This document shows positions 29 to 28,445 of a DNA stretch of 29,521 nucleotides, piece by piece (positions within the stretch are counted from its first letter, which is position 1; each line of letters opens with the position of its first letter). The translations under genes and the position numbers were made by a program. The notes below the pieces were generated by a model, which was given only the letters and a program-made list of their open reading frames with translations, did not search any database and had not been told where the DNA came from. The stretch covers positions 1 through 29,521 of the IMG/VR virus record IMGVR_UViG_3300012924_000021; one strand, written 5' to 3'. The DNA comes from a virus.

Positions 29-187
29 ATGAGCGACAACCTGATCACCGAGCAATTCATCGTCATGGAGCGCAGCGTCACCGGACAGGAGAGCACCTAC
101 CGGGTCGAGGACCTGAAGACCGGACTCCACAGCGACAACCTCACCCGCGAGAAGGCGCACGAGTACGCAGCCCTCCTCAACGGCTAA
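29..187 (+). CDS. Small hypothetical protein, 52 aa
   Basis: This is an ATG-started frame preceded by a plausible ribosome site (GGGAGCGG) and closed by TAA just before a strong terminator. The 52-residue product begins MSDNLITEQF and ends in an alpha-helical, charged segment (EKAHEYAALL). It has no signal peptide, membrane segment or cysteine. I do not recognise the family. It is the first of three short rightward units; the next gene and the RNA locus follow, each with its own promoter or terminator, unlike the leftward bulk of the window. The frame and terminator make it a credible gene; the function is unknown. Confidence 0.6.
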   Translation: MSDNLITEQFIVMERSVTGQESTYRVEDLKTGLHSDNLTREKAHEYAALLNG

Positions 188-193
188 CACCAA

Positions 194-224
194 GACCCGG
201 CCCCTACGGGGGTCGGGTTTTCTC
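194..224 (+). terminator. Intrinsic terminator after the 52-aa gene
   Basis: A GC-rich hairpin (ACCCG-CCCC arm, TAC loop, GGGG-CGGGT arm) is followed by TTTTCT. It lies a few bases after the TAA at 185-187. This is a classical rho-independent terminator for the rightward gene. Confidence 0.8.
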
Positions 225-257
225 GTATCTGGAGGTTACCCGCTCTTTTGCGCAAGA

Positions 258-277
258 CCCGACCGGCAACGGTCGGG
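258..277. other. Second hairpin resembling the first terminator, without a T-run
   Basis: CCCGACC at 258-264 pairs perfectly with GGTCGGG at 271-277 around a 6-nt loop. The surrounding bases (CAAGACCCG...GGTCGGG) resemble those of the terminator at 194-224, so this may be a duplicated terminator that lost its T tract. It may still stop or pause transcription just before promoter P1. Confidence 0.5.
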
Positions 278-285
278 CTGCTGGC

Positions 286-339
286 GTGTCCAAGTTAAGC
301 CATTCGGAGTATTCCCAGTTCTGGAGATCCGTGTATAGT
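286..339 (+). promoter_or_regulatory. Promoter P1 with repeated upstream element
   Basis: The -35 is TTCCCA (312-317), then a 16-nt spacer, then -10 TATAGT (334-339). The distance to the ATG at 346 is 6 nt, so the transcript is predicted to start at or next to the start codon (leaderless). The stretch from 286 to about 330 aligns without gaps to 595-639 upstream of the RNA promoter P2, sharing TCCAAGTT and CCATTCGGAGTATT. Confidence 0.7.
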
Positions 340-345
340 TGTGGT

Positions 346-552
346 ATGACGAACTCGCAGAACGCCAAGGTTGCCAACACCCGCAACGGCTGGGCCATCG
401 CGCTCATCACCAGCACCTACCGCGACGGCTCGGACTGCTACGAGATCGCTCGGGTCTCCCCCGCGAACCAGACCGTGACGATCCACCGTACGGGCGACTA
501 CCACAAGGCCCGCCAGCTGGCCAACCGCGAGTGGGCGGCCGACAAGGCCTAA
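346..552 (+). CDS. Small hypothetical protein, 68 aa, probably leaderless
   Basis: The longer frame starting at 286 would run through promoter P1, so I place the start at the ATG at 346 (MTNSQNAKVA). The product is 68 aa, polar, with one cysteine and no membrane segment. It contains a beta-rich middle (YEIARVSPANQTVTIHRTG) and a helical end (HKARQLANREWAADKA). I do not recognise the family. The -10 TATAGT ends only 6 nt before the ATG and there is no Shine-Dalgarno, so translation is probably leaderless, as is common in actinobacteria. A strong terminator follows 18 nt after the stop, so this is a single-gene unit. Confidence 0.65.
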   Translation: MTNSQNAKVANTRNGWAIALITSTYRDGSDCYEIARVSPANQTVTIHRTGDYHKARQLANREWAADKA

Positions 553-570
553 AACCCTTCCCGCACACAG

Positions 571-591
571 GCCCCCGAAAGGGGGCTTTTT
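571..591 (+). terminator. Intrinsic terminator after the 68-aa gene
   Basis: GCCCCC (571-576), GAAA tetraloop, GGGGGC (581-586), then TTTTT (587-591). This is a textbook rho-independent terminator. Confidence 0.9.
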
Positions 592-594
592 CAT

Positions 595-649
595 GTCTCC
601 AAGTTGCCCCATTCGGAGTATTGCCAAACTCCAGACCAACCAGTAGACT
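595..649 (+). promoter_or_regulatory. Promoter P2 driving the candidate RNA
   Basis: The -35 is TTGCCA (621-626), the spacer is 17 nt, and the -10 is TAGACT (644-649), continuing as GGCG. The predicted start is near 656. The -10 with its GGCG tail is identical to the promoter at 29375-29403 on the other strand, and the upstream part is a near copy of P1. No translatable gene follows. Confidence 0.75.
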
Positions 650-655
650 GGCGTT

Positions 656-838
656 ACAACTTCACAGAGCGACACCAAGTAGGGCCGCGAGGAGTACCCG
701 AGTACATCGGGGCAACGGAACGCCTGAACAGCCCGCACCCGCGAGGGTGGCAGAGGCAAGGGTCGATCGAGTCGCGGGGATGAAACCCGCGAACGCTCGG
801 CTCGCGTCATCCCGCCTGGTCCTCGCTCTGTGAAGTTG
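656..838 (+). ncRNA. Candidate structured phage RNA (~183 nt), undescribed
   Basis: The segment starts at the predicted start site of P2 and is closed by a perfect 16-bp inverted repeat: CAACTTCACAGAGCGA at 657-672 pairs with 823-838. The stem can extend through 682-686/818-822 with a 9-nt bulge. Inside I can draw three arms: CCCGA/TCGGG (697-701/707-711); GCCT/AGGC (722-725/754-757) capped by CACCC/GGGTG (736-740/745-749) with a GCGA (GNRA) loop; and GGGATGA/TCATCCC (777-783/807-813) stacked on CGCGA/TCGCG (788-792/802-806). An alternative hairpin CGCGGG/CCCGCG (773-778/786-791) excludes the last arm. An open frame (339-833) crosses it but starts inside P1 and has no start codon behind P2. 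I recognise no tRNA, tmRNA, RNase P or 6S signature. Structure is seen; function is unknown. Confidence 0.65.
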
Positions 839-842
839 CCTT

Positions 843-1679
843 TCAGCTCCACTCGCGCATCATCGCGCGCTCTTCGCCGAACAAGTCTTCCCCAGTACGG
901 GAGCCGTTGTCGGCCTTCTCGGCTTTCTGCGCCTCTGGCGGCCCTGTATGGGCCTCTCCCGAGATTACCTCCGCATCGAGCACTTCTTCCCCCTCGGCAG
1001 CCTCGAGAGCCGCACGGGCCCTCCTAGGCCCCGTTACGAGACGCTCGAGCACGACCTGGAACGGCTTGTCGGCCGAAACCTGCACGATCTCTGGAGTCTT
1101 GCCGCGCAACCGCTCGAAAACGTAGGTCGCGGCCTTGAGCCGTTGCGCGTCCTCGCCATTCTCCATAACGTCCAGCATCGTGTCGACCGCATCGAGCAGG
1201 CCGGCCTTGAGCGTCTCGTCAGTGCGCTCGTACAGCTCGGTCGCGAGCCGGTCGTACAGCGCCCTCAGCTTCATGTTGTTCGGGAACTGCCGAACGAGCT
1301 TGCGCACTTCGCGCGGCAGCGACGTGAGCGACTTCCGCGACAGCTCGGCGACGAGGTCTTCTTCCTCGCGAAGAGCCCGAATCTCCCATTTCGTGCGCTC
1401 GGCGAGTTCCGGGTCTTCCTCGATCTCGTCGTCGTCCGCGCGTTGGCGAATTAGCGCGCGTCGCTCCTCAGGCGTCATCGTCGGGGTAAAGCCCCACGAC
1501 GCGTCGATATCCGCGTCTGTGGGTTGCTCGGGCTCCGGAGTCGAGTAGTAGTCGTCTCGCGTCTTCGTGGCCTGCGCCCTCAGTTCCCGAAAGCGTTCAG
1601 GCGTCAGCTTCCTTCGTGGGTCGTCCAAAGGCAGCGCGTCCCACTCAGCTTCCTCATCCCTCTCGAATGTAGTGCTCAT
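843..1679 (-). CDS. Putative terminase small subunit-like DNA-binding protein, 278 aa
   Basis: I choose the ATG at 1679 (MSTTFERDEE, preceded by GGGAG) over an in-frame start at 1829, because the longer version would overlap the well-signalled 64-aa gene almost entirely. The N-terminal half is charged and helical (PLDDPRRKLTPERFRELR). The centre (about residues 115-190) contains SLPREVRKLVRQFP and then DAVDTMLDVMENGEDAQRLK followed by ATYVFERLRGKTPE. This last pattern, helices averaging over 'batches' of a repeat followed by a GKxP motif, resembles many phage small-terminase or HTH DNA-binding proteins. The tail is acidic and low-complexity. It is last in the leftward operon and convergent with the RNA locus at 656-838. 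No large terminase is adjacent, which weakens the call. Confidence 0.5.
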   Translation of the reverse strand: MSTTFERDEEAEWDALPLDDPRRKLTPERFRELRAQATKTRDDYYSTPEPEQPTDADIDASWGFTPTMTPEERRALIRQRADDDEIEEDPELAERTKWEIRALREEEDLVAELSRKSLTSLPREVRKLVRQFPNNMKLRALYDRLATELYERTDETLKAGLLDAVDTMLDVMENGEDAQRLKAATYVFERLRGKTPEIVQVSADKPFQVVLERLVTGPRRARAALEAAEGEEVLDAEVISGEAHTGPPEAQKAEKADNGSRTGEDLFGEERAMMREWS

Positions 1680-1848
1680 AGCTCGCCACTGCTCCCGGAT
1701 CTTCGCTCTCCTGGTCAACTCGAAGCATCGCCCGATGCGCCTCGCGGTTACTGGGAACGGCTCCCAAACTCGTGGGCGCCTGAATTCCCCGTCCCCAACT
1801 AAATTCAGTTGGCCCCTCGGGCTCAACATCCCTCAGCTTGTCAGCCAT
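1654..1848 (-). CDS. Small hypothetical protein, 64 aa
   Basis: The ATG at 1848 (MADKLRDVEP) has a GGAGAAGGGCGAG leader and overlaps the TAA of the upstream 49-aa gene (TAATG). Its end overlaps the start of the 278-aa gene by 26 nt. The product is polar and ends ASYEHYIREG; no known domain is recognised. The tight coupling to both neighbours supports it being translated, but a part of this region is also open in the neighbouring frame. Confidence 0.55.
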   Translation of the reverse strand: MADKLRDVEPEGPTEFSWGRGIQAPTSLGAVPSNREAHRAMLRVDQESEDPGAVASYEHYIREG

Positions 1849-1997: not shown

Positions 1998-2157
1998 TTT
2001 CCCTCCAAATTACACCGAAATCCTACCCTGAAAACTACCGGCTACCGATTGCTAGAAGTTAGAGCTGCGTAGCGTTTCAAAACCCTCTAAACGGAGAGGC
2101 TCTCCGGTTACTCTATTAAACTACCTCTCCCCCTTTAAAATCGGTAGTTCGGTAGTT

Positions 2158-2186
2158 ATTATAGTAGAAACCCATCTCTACCAGGC
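2158..2186 (-). promoter_or_regulatory. Possible promoter for the 1997-843 operon
   Basis: On the minus strand the -10 is a perfect TATAAT (2163-2158). The -35 is poor (TGCCTG at about 18 nt). The expected start lies inside a tandem AACTACCG pair (2139-2157), so a protein bound there could repress it. Confidence 0.45.
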
Positions 2187-2206
2187 ATTTCATTGGCTAC
2201 CGATCC

Positions 2207-2250
2207 CTCCTGAAACCAGTAGCTAACTACTCGTCTTCAGGAGCTTTTTC
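2207..2250 (+). terminator. Nested hairpin followed by T-run, facing right
   Basis: CTCCTGAA (2207-2214) pairs with TTCAGGAG (2236-2243); inside it AGTAG (2218-2222) pairs with CTACT (2227-2231) around CTAA. CTTTTTC follows on the plus strand. Rightward transcription is not otherwise expected here, so it may end an antisense or primer RNA, or simply be an origin hairpin. Confidence 0.45.
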
Positions 2251-2350
2251 AACTGGTTAATTGCAAACCAACAACCAACCGTGCAGTAAAAATATCAAAC
2301 CAAGATCGAACTACCCTTTTAACTACCGTTTTCAAGATCGAATAGGCCCT

Positions 2351-4933
2351 CTACTTAACCCAGGAAAGACCAGTACGAATCTTTACGCTTTTGCCGCCCT
2401 TCGATGTAGTCTGAATGCCGTATCCCCGTCCAGTTAGCTCCCGTCCGAACTTGTTAATTGACATCCGGGAGACGTCTACATTCCCCACTTCAGCCCACAT
2501 CATCCAGCGCTCGAAAAGCTCGTGCGCCAGGACTTTGCCACCAGCGTCGACCCGCGTTACCTCGGTCAAGAACACATCGAGATCGGTCATCTCGCCCAGC
2601 ATCTTCGCGGTCTCCTGTAGCACCACCTCGGGCGCGGCCATGCCTTCTTCCCGGTACAGCTCCCAGCCCCGTACAGCCCACGCGAGCAGGGCAGAACGCC
2701 CCTCCGCGGATGCGAGGGCGACCGACACGGCGAAGTTCTCGCTACCGGCATCTACAACCTCGCGGAACGGCACGCAGACAAGCCGCCGTTCGATCGCTTT
2801 GTCCTTGCCGAGGATCTGCGGCATCGCGTTCGTCGCGACCCACGGAGTAAACGCGGGAATCCGCTCGACATAATTCGACGAGTTGAGCAGCCGTGCCCGG
2901 ATCGGATCTCCGCCAGTGAGCCGCTTGACCTGGTCCGCGTGCAGATACCACTCCGCCGAGGCCTCCGAAGCGGCCAACAGCCTTTTCCCAAGCCCACGAA
3001 CAAGGTCTGCTCTCGGCCGCTCATCCTGGTTGTCTCTGAACAGCGACAAGTTCATTGTGCCAGCATATTCTCCGAGCGCCCCATTAAACGCGTTGACGAA
3101 GGTGGTTTTTCCAGTAGAGGTGGTGCCCTGCATGAAGAACATTTTTCGCTCTGGGTTGGAACCGAACAGGGTGTAGCCCGCGATTTTCTGCACATACCGC
3201 GCAACCGAGGCATCGGGCAAGAAACGAGCAAGATACGCATCCCAGGCTTCCAATTTAGCCCCTGGAGCGTAACGGGTTCCAGTGGACAGCGAAATGAGAT
3301 CTGAACGGGAAGCCGGCCGGAACCGAACCTCCGAAGCCCCTAACTCAAGCGTTCCATTCGGGCAGGCAAGCAGCGCGGGTAAACAATCAAAGGCTTCGGC
3401 ATCCTGCAGTGCCCGATCTTGCGATGCGGCGATCTTCGCCATATTAACGAGCCCTTTGTGGTCTGAAGAGATCTTCGCGTGCTTAGAAAGCAACCCGATC
3501 TTTCCGGCCAGGTCTCCTCCGACATCTGCTGATACTGATGACCCTGATGATACGAGCTTGTCAGTCCACTCATCACACAACTCTCGCTGTCGCTTCCCGA
3601 CAAGCTGAGACGCCTGCATAGCTCGGTTCCCATTTGGGTCAGGAACCCAAGCCCCTGTATCTGGGGCCCAGAAATACCAAGCCTTATCCCCTGCGACGTA
3701 ATACGCTGACCCATCTAGGATATCCAACAAATGGTCTGCGTTCCCCGAATCGTCATATGTATATTTATCGGCTGGTTTAGCTTTACCCATTCGAGCACGT
3801 TTACGAACCGAACCACTCTCCGGTTCCTCTACTTGGATGCCGAGCTTCTCGCCCCACGACAACGAGTTTTCCGCGCACCCGCACTCGTCCTCAGCAACCG
3901 ATTCGCCGTCGGCAACCGAAGCCATCATGATACGAACGGCGCCGTCTCGGACCCGGTTGAACTCGAGGATGGCCTGTCTGTCTGAACGTCGCCCCTTGCG
4001 TCCGGGGGCCTTTACTTCTTCATAGAAGGAATCTCGCATCAGCCGGATCGCTTTGACGATGCCGGAATGTCCTTCGCTAGCCAAACTAACGACTGAGTAG
4101 ACTCGGGAGTTCAATGCGTCGTGCGCGCCGCCGGACATCTCGTCGACCGCTGCCTGCGCTTGCTTCCGCATGAGGCGGCACATCTCCCCGGCAGGCCGCT
4201 CCTTTACCCACCGGAGGATGTCCGTCCGGGTCGCGGAGACGTCGGACGGGAGAGCGGACCAGATCTTGCCGCCCGAGAGCCCCTCGACCCACGGAGCGGG
4301 CATCTTCGCGAGGTCGGAGAGCAGCGGGATCTCGTTGTCGACCGTAATGCCTTCGGGCGTCCCATTCAGGCTCGTGCCAGGAGGATACCACAGGTAGATC
4401 TTTTTCGTGTCCGGGTGAACCGAGGGGTATGCGACTGCGTACCTGTGATGATTCTGAATTATCTGGATATCGGCGATCGGTTGGCCCGACCAATGAAGGC
4501 CGCCCGGGACCCGGAAGAACCGGATGCCCGAGACGCCGTCCGACCGCGCCGTAAGAGTCCAGGTGTCCGGGAGCGGCCCGAGGTCTGCGAGGAGTTCATC
4601 GAACGAGGCGCGGCCGACCTTCTCGCCATAGGCATCTACGTCAATACCAATTACGGTATCGGGCATCCGCAGCGCGATATTGCCGTTAGCCTGATAATCC
4701 TTATGCCACTTCATGACCTTTTGCTTGTCTGGCATATCGTACTTGCCAGTGCTGCCAGTGGGCGGTGAACTTTTCCGCCGAGGCGGCAAAGGGAGCGGCA
4801 CCCAGCCGGCTTCAAAGTATTTTTGGGCAAAGGAATGCCAAGGACGCTTGCTTCGGAGGTTGTCGCCACCACCCGAATTCGAACCGCTTTCCGACGCACT
4901 GGGACCAGGCGAATTCGGCGTGCGTCGTACCAC
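2351..4933 (-). CDS. Bifunctional primase-polymerase / SF3 (D5-like) helicase, 860 aa
   Basis: The product starts with GTG at 4933 behind AGGAGGTAAAC. Residues ~36-215 form an archaeo-eukaryotic PrimPol domain: GIDVDAY supplies the metal-binding D98/D100, D155 is a candidate third acid, and GVSGIRFF replaces the usual SGxH motif with arginine at the His position. Residues ~395-560 look like the D5 N-terminal domain. Residues ~590-730 are an SF3 helicase: Walker A GTTSTGKTT (603-611), the acidic ...LLAASEAS strand (E657), sensor-1 asparagine in PWVATNAMP (N702) and arginine finger region ERR (715-717). It should prime and unwind DNA at the phage origin, probably in the repeat region immediately downstream (1998-2350). 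It follows the RuvC-like gene, separated by a long inverted repeat. Confidence 0.93.
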   Translation of the reverse strand: MVRRTPNSPGPSASESGSNSGGGDNLRSKRPWHSFAQKYFEAGWVPLPLPPRRKSSPPTGSTGKYDMPDKQKVMKWHKDYQANGNIALRMPDTVIGIDVDAYGEKVGRASFDELLADLGPLPDTWTLTARSDGVSGIRFFRVPGGLHWSGQPIADIQIIQNHHRYAVAYPSVHPDTKKIYLWYPPGTSLNGTPEGITVDNEIPLLSDLAKMPAPWVEGLSGGKIWSALPSDVSATRTDILRWVKERPAGEMCRLMRKQAQAAVDEMSGGAHDALNSRVYSVVSLASEGHSGIVKAIRLMRDSFYEEVKAPGRKGRRSDRQAILEFNRVRDGAVRIMMASVADGESVAEDECGCAENSLSWGEKLGIQVEEPESGSVRKRARMGKAKPADKYTYDDSGNADHLLDILDGSAYYVAGDKAWYFWAPDTGAWVPDPNGNRAMQASQLVGKRQRELCDEWTDKLVSSGSSVSADVGGDLAGKIGLLSKHAKISSDHKGLVNMAKIAASQDRALQDAEAFDCLPALLACPNGTLELGASEVRFRPASRSDLISLSTGTRYAPGAKLEAWDAYLARFLPDASVARYVQKIAGYTLFGSNPERKMFFMQGTTSTGKTTFVNAFNGALGEYAGTMNLSLFRDNQDERPRADLVRGLGKRLLAASEASAEWYLHADQVKRLTGGDPIRARLLNSSNYVERIPAFTPWVATNAMPQILGKDKAIERRLVCVPFREVVDAGSENFAVSVALASAEGRSALLAWAVRGWELYREEGMAAPEVVLQETAKMLGEMTDLDVFLTEVTRVDAGGKVLAHELFERWMMWAEVGNVDVSRMSINKFGRELTGRGYGIQTTSKGGKSVKIRTGLSWVK

Positions 4934-4980: not shown

Positions 4981-5035
4981 CCGCGAGACGCTTAGGCACG
5001 TGCTCTAAGTGCACAAAGGACTAAGCGTCTCGCGG
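4981..5035. repeat. Perfect 15-bp inverted repeat before the primase gene
   Basis: CCGCGAGACGCTTAG (4981-4995) is the exact reverse complement of 5021-5035. The 25-nt loop holds GCAC...GTGC, which could pair. No T-run follows on either strand. It sits between the resolvase stop (5043) and the primase ribosome site, so it may be a U-tract-less terminator, a leader RNA structure or a protein site. Confidence 0.7.
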
Positions 5036-8996: not shown

Positions 8997-9198
8997 TGAA
9001 TTGCCCCTCCAATTTACTCTCTGGGATAAGCCACTCGAAACCATCTGGAAAAGGGATCGACTGCTTTTTAGGCCAAGACTGCATAGTGCTCAACTGGTAC
9101 ATCATGCATGTTGCATCCGCCTCGTCAACACTCAGAACGAAAACGTAGATGCCCCGCCAGCGGAAAACGTCGCCTGACTTGGGGCTAGGCCTGCTCAT
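8986..9198 (-). CDS. Hypothetical protein, 70 aa
   Basis: The ATG at 9198 (MSRPSPKSGDVFRW) has CCGGAGG at 6-nt spacing. The fold looks like a small beta barrel: FRWRGIYVFVLSVDEADATC then MMYQLSTMQ. The product has no membrane segment and no close family that I recognise. It overlaps the genes on both sides by about 11-14 nt. Confidence 0.55.
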   Translation of the reverse strand: MSRPSPKSGDVFRWRGIYVFVLSVDEADATCMMYQLSTMQSWPKKQSIPFPDGFEWLIPESKLEGQFNVR

Positions 9199-27359: not shown

Positions 27360-28381
27360 GAGATCTCCTTCTTCGTACTATCAGCGTTGACCTTCGTGGC
27401 TCCGAGGTCGACCTGCTGGGCCGCTGCACTTCCGGCGGCACGTCCGACGGCATCCTGTCGCTTCGCCTGCTCGCGCTCCCAACGAGCATGACTCTGCTTG
27501 CGCTCGCGCTGTTCCGCACGCTCCTGTGCGGCTCGCTGGGCTGGTGTCATATTGTCCAGCTTCGCCTGTTGCTCGGCCCGGTACTTCGCGAGAGCTTCGG
27601 CGGACATCGGGCGCAGGTGCGGGAACAGCTCGTAGTAGGCATCGCTCACGTCGGAGAACCGGTCCCGAAGCGCAACCGCGCTACCGGCCGTCTTCGAGAC
27701 GACGTCTTCCGCCGCGCGGCGCTGGATTTCGAGACGGTAGCGAATCGTGCGCTGGAAACCCTCGGCGTAGGCGGCACGGTAGGCCGCGTGCCGTTGGGTG
27801 TGGGGAACGGGCTCGACCCCTTCGAGCTTGCATTGCCGCCGATACGCGGCCTTCAACTTGCCGTCGTTCGACTTGCAGGGGAAGTCGTGCGCGTTCGCCT
27901 GGGTCGCGATGTCGTCCCACTTCCAGCCGGCTTCCTTAAGGATCTTGATGTTCTCGTCGGCCGGTCGACTCGCATCCCAGGACGGGTCGAGCTTCGAGAC
28001 GAAAGCGAGGTAGGCAGAGGTCCAGAGCATCCGAACGTATTCGACGTCAACCGGGAAGCCGACGACCGTTGCCTTGCCACCCCAGGCGCGGACAACCGTC
28101 TTGCAGCGCGCGTGCTGCGTGATGCTGGAGATCAGGAGGAACAGGTCGTCTTCGAAGACGTGCTCGGAGGGGAACACGATGTCGATCGAAATCGGGACCT
28201 CGCGCTCGTTCTTCGGCCTGTGCGACTCGAGAAGAGCAGCGTCGATCGCGTACTTCACCATCATCTTGTCTGCGAGCGCTAGTGCGGCGTCTGCGCTGCC
28301 GTGCTCCCCATGCCTGCGGAAGTCTTCGGCTTTCCCGACGAGGTTCGAGACCTTGTCGAGGATGTGCTGGGGTGTGTCCAT
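27356..28381 (-). CDS. DUF2786-containing protein, 341 aa
   Basis: The N-terminal ~50 residues (ILDKVSNLVGKAEDFRRHGE; ADAALALADKMMVKYAID) match the DUF2786 pattern of a helical domain found in actinobacterial and phage proteins of unknown function. The middle is alpha/beta with a Trp/Asp-rich block; the last ~80 residues are a long charged helix (AQRAAQERAEQRERKQSHAR). A weak ribosome site (GAAGGG) precedes the ATG. A GC-rich hairpin (28408-28445) lies just upstream. Function unknown; a coiled-coil scaffold or DNA-associated role is possible. Confidence 0.7.
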   Translation of the reverse strand: MDTPQHILDKVSNLVGKAEDFRRHGEHGSADAALALADKMMVKYAIDAALLESHRPKNEREVPISIDIVFPSEHVFEDDLFLLISSITQHARCKTVVRAWGGKATVVGFPVDVEYVRMLWTSAYLAFVSKLDPSWDASRPADENIKILKEAGWKWDDIATQANAHDFPCKSNDGKLKAAYRRQCKLEGVEPVPHTQRHAAYRAAYAEGFQRTIRYRLEIQRRAAEDVVSKTAGSAVALRDRFSDVSDAYYELFPHLRPMSAEALAKYRAEQQAKLDNMTPAQRAAQERAEQRERKQSHARWEREQAKRQDAVGRAAGSAAAQQVDLGATKVNADSTKKEIS

Positions 28382-28407
28382 GGGGTTATACCCTTCTAGC
28401 GGAGGAG

Positions 28408-28445
28408 GGGAGCCGGTCCGATGTCGGGCGACGAGACCGGCTCCC
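28408..28445. repeat. Perfect 11-bp inverted repeat upstream of the DUF2786 gene
   Basis: GGGAGCCGGTC (28408-28418) pairs with 28435-28445; the loop holds an inner GTCG/CGAC pair. No T-run follows. It could end transcription from the HNH gene without U-tract (I-shaped terminator) or shape the leader of the DUF2786 mRNA. Confidence 0.6.

Follow-up and report, generated by a model that had tools for sequence, protein, structure and literature searches.

A candidate promoter-driven non-coding RNA closed by a 16-bp stem beside a small terminase-like gene of a phage

What does promoter P2 produce, when the 183 nt behind it are bounded by the two arms of an inverted repeat and run up against a convergent gene? 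The original prediction was that this segment is a new phage RNA. We addressed the question in the window, meaning the whole 29,521-nucleotide stretch of DNA that was analysed, and in the phage contig from which it derives.

The window is part of an IMG/VR phage contig of 61,969 bases (~62 kb; G001), which closes into a circle because its two ends overlap by 77 bases. The nearest named relatives are Nocardia phage P3.1 (56.8%) and mycobacteriophages such as Chill and KandZ (56.0%; KandZ is classified in Dclasvirinae) based on DNA polymerase, and Gordonia Lambovirus phages (about 54% over the aligned 62%) based on terL. As these nearest relatives by protein are actinophages, the host is probably an actinobacterium. 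Three promoter units lie on the + strand, opposite in orientation to the surrounding terS, primase and terL genes. The P0 unit, the P1 unit and the candidate RNA unit make up a small accessory island of reversed orientation that separates terS from terL, with terL (L010:991-3528) lying beyond the contig junction. The island and its flanks comprise, in window coordinates:

-32 to -5 relative to the window, in the longer contig, + strand: promoter P0, preceding the 52-aa ORF
29..187, + strand: small ORF (52 aa) following promoter P0; matched neither Pfam nor PHROG
286..317, + strand: 32-bp promoter-upstream repeat, P1 copy, 84% identical to 595-626
312..339, + strand: promoter P1, TTCCCA-16-TATAGT, outside the P2 promoter family
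346..552, + strand: leaderless small ORF (68 aa), its ATG 7 nt behind the P1 -10
569..588, + strand: intrinsic terminator with U-tract, closing the P1 unit and preceding P2
595..626, + strand: 32-bp promoter-upstream repeat, P2 copy, 84% identical to 286-317
621..649, + strand: promoter P2, TTGCCA (621-626)-17-TAGACT (644-649), then GGCG; family member
843..1829, - strand: small terminase-like (terS-like) gene, convergent with the RNA; PHROG matches
2351-4933, - strand: primase gene

The gene at 843 had been suggested to encode a small terminase, and this may well be so: its best match was a family without assigned function (phrog_7407, E 2.3e-14), followed by a terminase small-subunit family (phrog_10899, E 1.5e-13). 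It had no Pfam family, and its protein had tblastn matches in 19 phage records covering 23-35% of the query. For the 68-aa ORF there was no Pfam family either, and PHROG matches were weak only (best E 0.17).

Several other elements were seen around the island. The terL gene (L010:991-3528) contains an in-frame, intein-like insert of ~360 aa after the terminase GPEY that is missing in three relatives. Upstream of terL, tRNA genes occur in 3 of 60 scanned loci (of 79 terL-related) and in Nocardia phage P3.1; tRNA-Met genes stand at L007:6309-6384, L040:360-434, L065:1002-1075 and L079:2455-2608, the last together with tRNA-Arg. Between the terS-like and primase genes, inverted GGTAGTT/AACTACC repeats (window 2138-2328) mark a possible replication origin, and other inverted repeats lie directly behind the primase gene in four named-relative loci (L005, L007, L012 and L014). 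Upstream of the primase gene, the gap contains a perfect inverted repeat of 15 bp (window 4981-5035), perhaps the terminator of the preceding gene.

P2 was found with the hexamers and 17-nt spacing originally claimed for it, and it is one of a family. The pattern TTGCCA-N17-TANRCTGG occurred at 7 distinct exact sites in the 61.9-kb phage compared with 0 in 60 shuffles (8 rows were returned, which include the duplicated contig end counted again). Allowing one mismatch added nothing to the exact sites, and a backward-pattern control matched once in G001. Promoters of this family may be early promoters. The start could be placed using P1, whose -10 ends at 339 and whose leaderless ATG stands at 346: the P2 -10 ends at 649, the equivalent position is A656, and the 7-nt offset in P1 supports a transcription start there. 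This agrees with the earlier proposal of a start at ~656 beside the 5' arm at 657, with the predicted A656 one base ahead of the arm. The 32-bp repeat upstream of P1 and P2 may represent an operator, or a promoter region that was duplicated. A separate operator-like motif, AACTCCAGA, noticed by eye in the promoters, did not exceed chance: with up to one mismatch it matched the window 10 times, and 7 of 100 shuffles had as many.

The segment behind P2 has the following predicted structure:

656..838, + strand: candidate structured non-coding RNA of 183 nt; would start at A656, 7 nt past the -10; fold z the lowest among 246 windows
657..672, + strand: closing stem, 5' arm CAACTTCACAGAGCGA; mean pair probability 0.99
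697..711, + strand: internal hairpin CCCGA/UCGGG; mean pair probability 0.90
736..749, + strand: GNRA-capped hairpin CACCC-GCGA-GGGUG, pairs 736-740/745-749; mean pair probability 0.56
772..792, + strand: internal hairpin UCGCGGG-GAUGAAA-CCCGCGA, pairs 772-778/786-792; mean pair probability 0.96
823..838, + strand: closing stem, 3' arm TCGCTCTGTGAAGTTG, then CC, as in the hairpin of a related phage described below

The perfect 16-bp inverted repeat was confirmed. Its arms pair in full across a 150-nt spacer, and in 200 window shuffles (first-order Markov, arms separated by at most 250 nt) the longest perfect inverted repeat was 14 bp, with none reaching 16 bp. Folding of 656-838, suggested earlier as a check, predicted the closing stem, and in a scan of 246 + strand windows of 183 nt, candidate included and with 16 shuffles each, the segment ranked first by fold z (-6.25, the next being -3.36). 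The region 655-840 folded at -92.6 kcal/mol (z -5.1) on the + strand and at -93.7 (z -4.4) on the - strand; as both strands fold about equally, folding alone cannot pick the strand, and the promoter picks it. The significance of the fold is mostly due to the closing stem, because the inner 150 nt without the closing arms were weakly above chance (z -1.46; 19 of 300 shuffles fold as well). Within the interior, the predicted GNRA-capped hairpin (loop GCGA) was present. A 12-bp bulged stem had been proposed to compete with another hairpin (777-791); because the hairpin 772-778/786-792 is near certain (0.96), the bulged stem would be a minor state at most.

BLAST of window 180-900 in distant mode against 50,697 phage records gave no match, and 595-842 had short matches only (best E 0.05) in five named relative genomes (L005, L006, L007, L013 and L014). 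Using 640-845, four Rhizobium plasmid records shared a 46-nt match, which we judged to be chance (E 0.2). In viral_contigs, protein searches with terS and primase recovered the same phage only. A terL alignment identified 214 relatives; among the best 80 of these, which were used, one was the same phage, leaving 79 loci: the 656-838 RNA had no significant match among them (best E 1.5), and its absence from relatives is not firm because only these best 80 were used and a terS match was present in 22 of the 79. Several of these loci hold other inverted repeats of at least 12 bp; those of L041, L089 and L078 had no evident sequence in common with 657-672/823-838, and those of L041 and L078 look coding by eye. 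In all, no relative of the 656-838 locus was found in the phage, plasmid, viral_contigs, genome_contigs or terL-locus searches. A non-exhaustive check of titles and abstract openings found no description of an RNA resembling 656-838.

The ends of the segment did recur behind another promoter of the family. A related phage, G002, was reached through the promoter pattern and matches G001 in the same order with 73-87% nucleotide identity in blocks of at least 450 bases. Its sequence does not cover the 656-838 locus; it carries three promoter-family sites, all alignable with G001 sites. The G002 promoter at 9195 (-) is homologous to the G001 site at 28283, and both it and P2 read GTAGACTGGCGYTACAACTTC. 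Behind it lies a 49-nt insert that starts with ACAACTTC and ends with GAAGTTGC, then C, with ACAACTTC at the same offset from the promoter as behind P2 and GAAGTTGCC after it. The homologous leader of G001 is without these 49 nt, making this a clean insertion. The insert folds as a 5' hairpin of about 48-49 nt (-17 kcal/mol, z -3.0; 3 of 200 shuffles did as well). With the same ends at the same offset behind a sister promoter, the ends of the RNA recur as a transcription-start hairpin; since the G002 copy is part of the leader of an mRNA, hairpins of this sort are not necessarily RNAs in their own right.

Across the scanned pieces of both phages and L038, CAACTTC...GAAGTTG pairs 15 to 300 nt apart were located at the 656-838 RNA, at the G002 hairpin and in one further G002 match ending in that hairpin. 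Among the 10 family promoters of G001 and G002, ACAACTTC stands at the predicted start of two and not at that of the other eight, the G001 homologue of the G002 9195 site included. Three of the 10 promoters have, from +2 onwards, a 5' arm that finds a perfect partner over at least 7 nt within 260 nt: P2 (16 nt), G002 9195 (7 nt) and G002 5105 (8 nt, ending at +233), the last probably by chance. At random positions, arms of at least 7 nt occurred in 100 of 4000 cases and arms of 16 nt in 0 of 4000. We claim no similarity between the interior of the RNA and that of the G002 hairpin, because 297 of 1000 shuffles equal it, and BLAST of the G002 leader in phages gave no match.

A structured leader with two hairpins is common to G001 and G002 (L117:3283-3425, corresponding to G001 contig 28283-28425, and L124:8995-9195 minus). 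For helices picked by eye on the sequences, the comparison of these two leaders gave 3 of 14 pairs with compensatory double changes, 11 unchanged and 0 broken, and the G001 leader alone folded with z -2.0. From the compensatory pairs and the absence of broken ones in this two-sequence comparison, RNA structure behind one promoter of the family appears to be maintained in this group of phages.

On balance, we lean towards P2 driving a stand-alone small non-coding RNA of ~183 nt, its ends paired in a clamp, as the third unit of the terS-terL island. The evidence is the recurrence of the promoter, a predicted start that coincides with the arm, the stem itself, the lack of a convincing ORF and the same ends behind a sister promoter; together with the lack of an Rfam match, the promoter family, the start position and the coding analysis lend support to the original prediction of a phage RNA. 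P2 would start transcription at A656, one base ahead of the closing stem, and the 16-bp (up to ~20-bp) end clamp would protect the RNA, leaving the internal hairpins as possible binding surfaces. Such an RNA would be made early, end near 838 and act in trans, through base pairing or protein binding. The two instances also hint at a reusable transcription-start hairpin in this phage group. A bolder extension, which we consider less likely than not, is that one promoter family of this lineage would carry hairpin cassettes precisely at its transcription start, their ends constant (A-CAACUUC ... GAAGUUG-CC) and their interiors free to vary; one may have become the 183-nt stand-alone RNA and another the 49-nt mRNA-leader insert, again with two instances in hand. 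If true, the cassette would be a portable 5'-end RNA module able to turn a promoter into a non-coding RNA gene.

The main rival to a stand-alone RNA arises because no canonical terminator follows 838: neither strand showed a terminator-like site (U-tract) between it and 2400, unlike the P1 unit, which ends in one, and the terS-like gene ends on the opposite strand four bases past the end of the stem. The segment could then be the structured 5' leader of a longer antisense RNA, comparable to lambda OOP, that runs into terS and holds it down, with the hairpin stabilizing the 5' end, much as the G002 hairpin, which shares these ends, opens an mRNA leader and cannot act there as a full terminator. 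A perfect 16-bp clamp would nonetheless exceed the need of a 5' stabilizer. Neither a promoter-family site nor a ACAACTTC...GAAGTTG pair was present in 90 related loci (79 terL-related and 11 named-phage; 812 kb), many of which cover terS-terL partly and in which scrambled motifs, 20 of them used as controls, matched 0 to 2 times; this too argues against the leader, which we consider unlikely, if the strongest of the alternatives.

Perfect terminal inverted repeats with 16-bp arms are also a feature of small mobile or hairpin DNA elements (MITE- or REP-like), and the G002 hairpin is a clean insert with the same ends; the RNA would then be incidental to an element lying behind a promoter. We regard this as distinctly unlikely, given that no target-site duplication was seen by eye at the flanks, that no second copy was found in the pieces of the 61.9-kb phage and that both cases (P2 and G002) begin exactly at the predicted transcription start. 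Exact scans of genome_contigs gave 0 matches for the paired arms and 0 for the upstream repeat. In viral_contigs, the 5' arm was found in the same phage and in five other contigs that lack the 3' arm; the hairpin core and an inner 18-mer were found in the same phage only, and a promoter-upstream 18-mer in two other contigs, by eye in unrelated coding sequence.

Both P0 and P1 precede a small ORF, and the upstream regions of P1 and P2 are 84% identical over 32 bp, which would suit the remnant of another small protein gene, the third in the island, with its frame lost or reduced to a short peptide. In the segment, reading frames begin at GTG 747 (28 codons) and ATG 780 (17 codons), both ending at TGA 831-833, and GTG 830 opens 65 codons extending across the terS gene; no well-spaced ribosome site was seen by eye for any of the three. 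The earlier statement that neither a start codon nor a ribosome site follows P2 thus stands for the ribosome site and fails for the start codon. Two translated frames gave no convincing family match (one weak, E 0.022, to a family without assigned function), and the segment contains no convincing ORF. It has no similarity to the P1 gene and its stem is longer than chance allows (0 of 200 shuffles), making a gene remnant improbable.

A packaging-RNA-like role had been raised as a speculation, and its one support is the position next to terS; a DNA-level packaging (pac) element would in addition be compatible with the circular contig (77-base overlap), which may point to headful packaging. The phage has terS-like and terL genes of its own, there was no match in the 79 terL-related loci (22 of which show terS), and the Rfam search suggested earlier placed 656-838 in no known family, with 0 matches in the window at gathering score and a single miRNA match (E 2.6) for 560-900 at a relaxed threshold. 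A pac or phi29-like element is therefore very improbable. Readings as a 6S-like RNA, a CRISPR-repeat-like element (GCGGGGAUGAAACCC, which may resemble a CRISPR repeat), a tmRNA-like RNA or a type I toxin were dropped for want of defining features; ARAGORN reported 0 tRNA or tmRNA genes in the window.

Returning to a stand-alone RNA, how does it compare with known systems? 6S RNA is a long rod with a central bubble. The predicted fold of 656-838 is a clamp around a branched, partly uncertain interior, and Rfam gave no match to the 6S family at gathering score (window) or relaxed (560-900). The phi29 packaging RNA is likewise structured, encoded by a phage close to a packaging gene and comparable in size; unlike it, 656-838 adjoins terS/terL packaging proteins and matches no Rfam family. 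The lambda OOP antisense RNA is a short transcript from its own promoter that overlaps cII and has a terminator. Like OOP, the candidate has its own promoter and is convergent with the gene whose 3' end it faces; unlike OOP, its stem ends before the terS stop codon, so that an antisense overlap is something we infer. Phage-derived sRNAs are reportedly the subject of a review (PMC12197685).

Abundant non-coding RNAs from actinophage promoters are a reported yet unexplained phenomenon. According to one report, some extrachromosomal prophages need a region expressing non-coding RNA for replication (PMC7157519). In Rhodococcus phage WC1, a 46-kb phage like the cluster CA temperate phages, RNA-seq reportedly revealed three transcribed intergenic non-coding regions (PMC10986025); 656-838 is likewise intergenic, non-coding and from a probable actinophage, with the transcripts observed in WC1 and predicted here. 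The closest parallel in kind is in the cluster A mycobacteriophages L5, D29 and StarStuff, where abundant stable non-coding RNAs come from the Pleft early promoter. As reported there, the Pleft region spans ~500 bp at the right end of the genome, yields four RNA species of ~500 to ~100 nt by RNA-seq and Northern, is toxic in M. smegmatis and has no ORF longer than about 30 codons, and the role of the RNAs is given as unclear (PMC5712189). To the extent of that description, both are non-coding regions directly behind an actinophage promoter with no long ORF; unlike the Pleft RNAs, 656-838 is 183 nt long, has a 16-bp end clamp, lies between terS and terL and is known from sequence alone. By this likeness of description, not of sequence, 656-838 may be akin to the promoter-driven RNAs of cluster A, and it is likely an orphan phage non-coding RNA of a known general kind. 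For another phage group it supplies a small candidate with sharp boundaries, a predicted start and a clamp, which can be deleted or expressed, and the same ends behind a relative's promoter suggest how such RNAs may arise.
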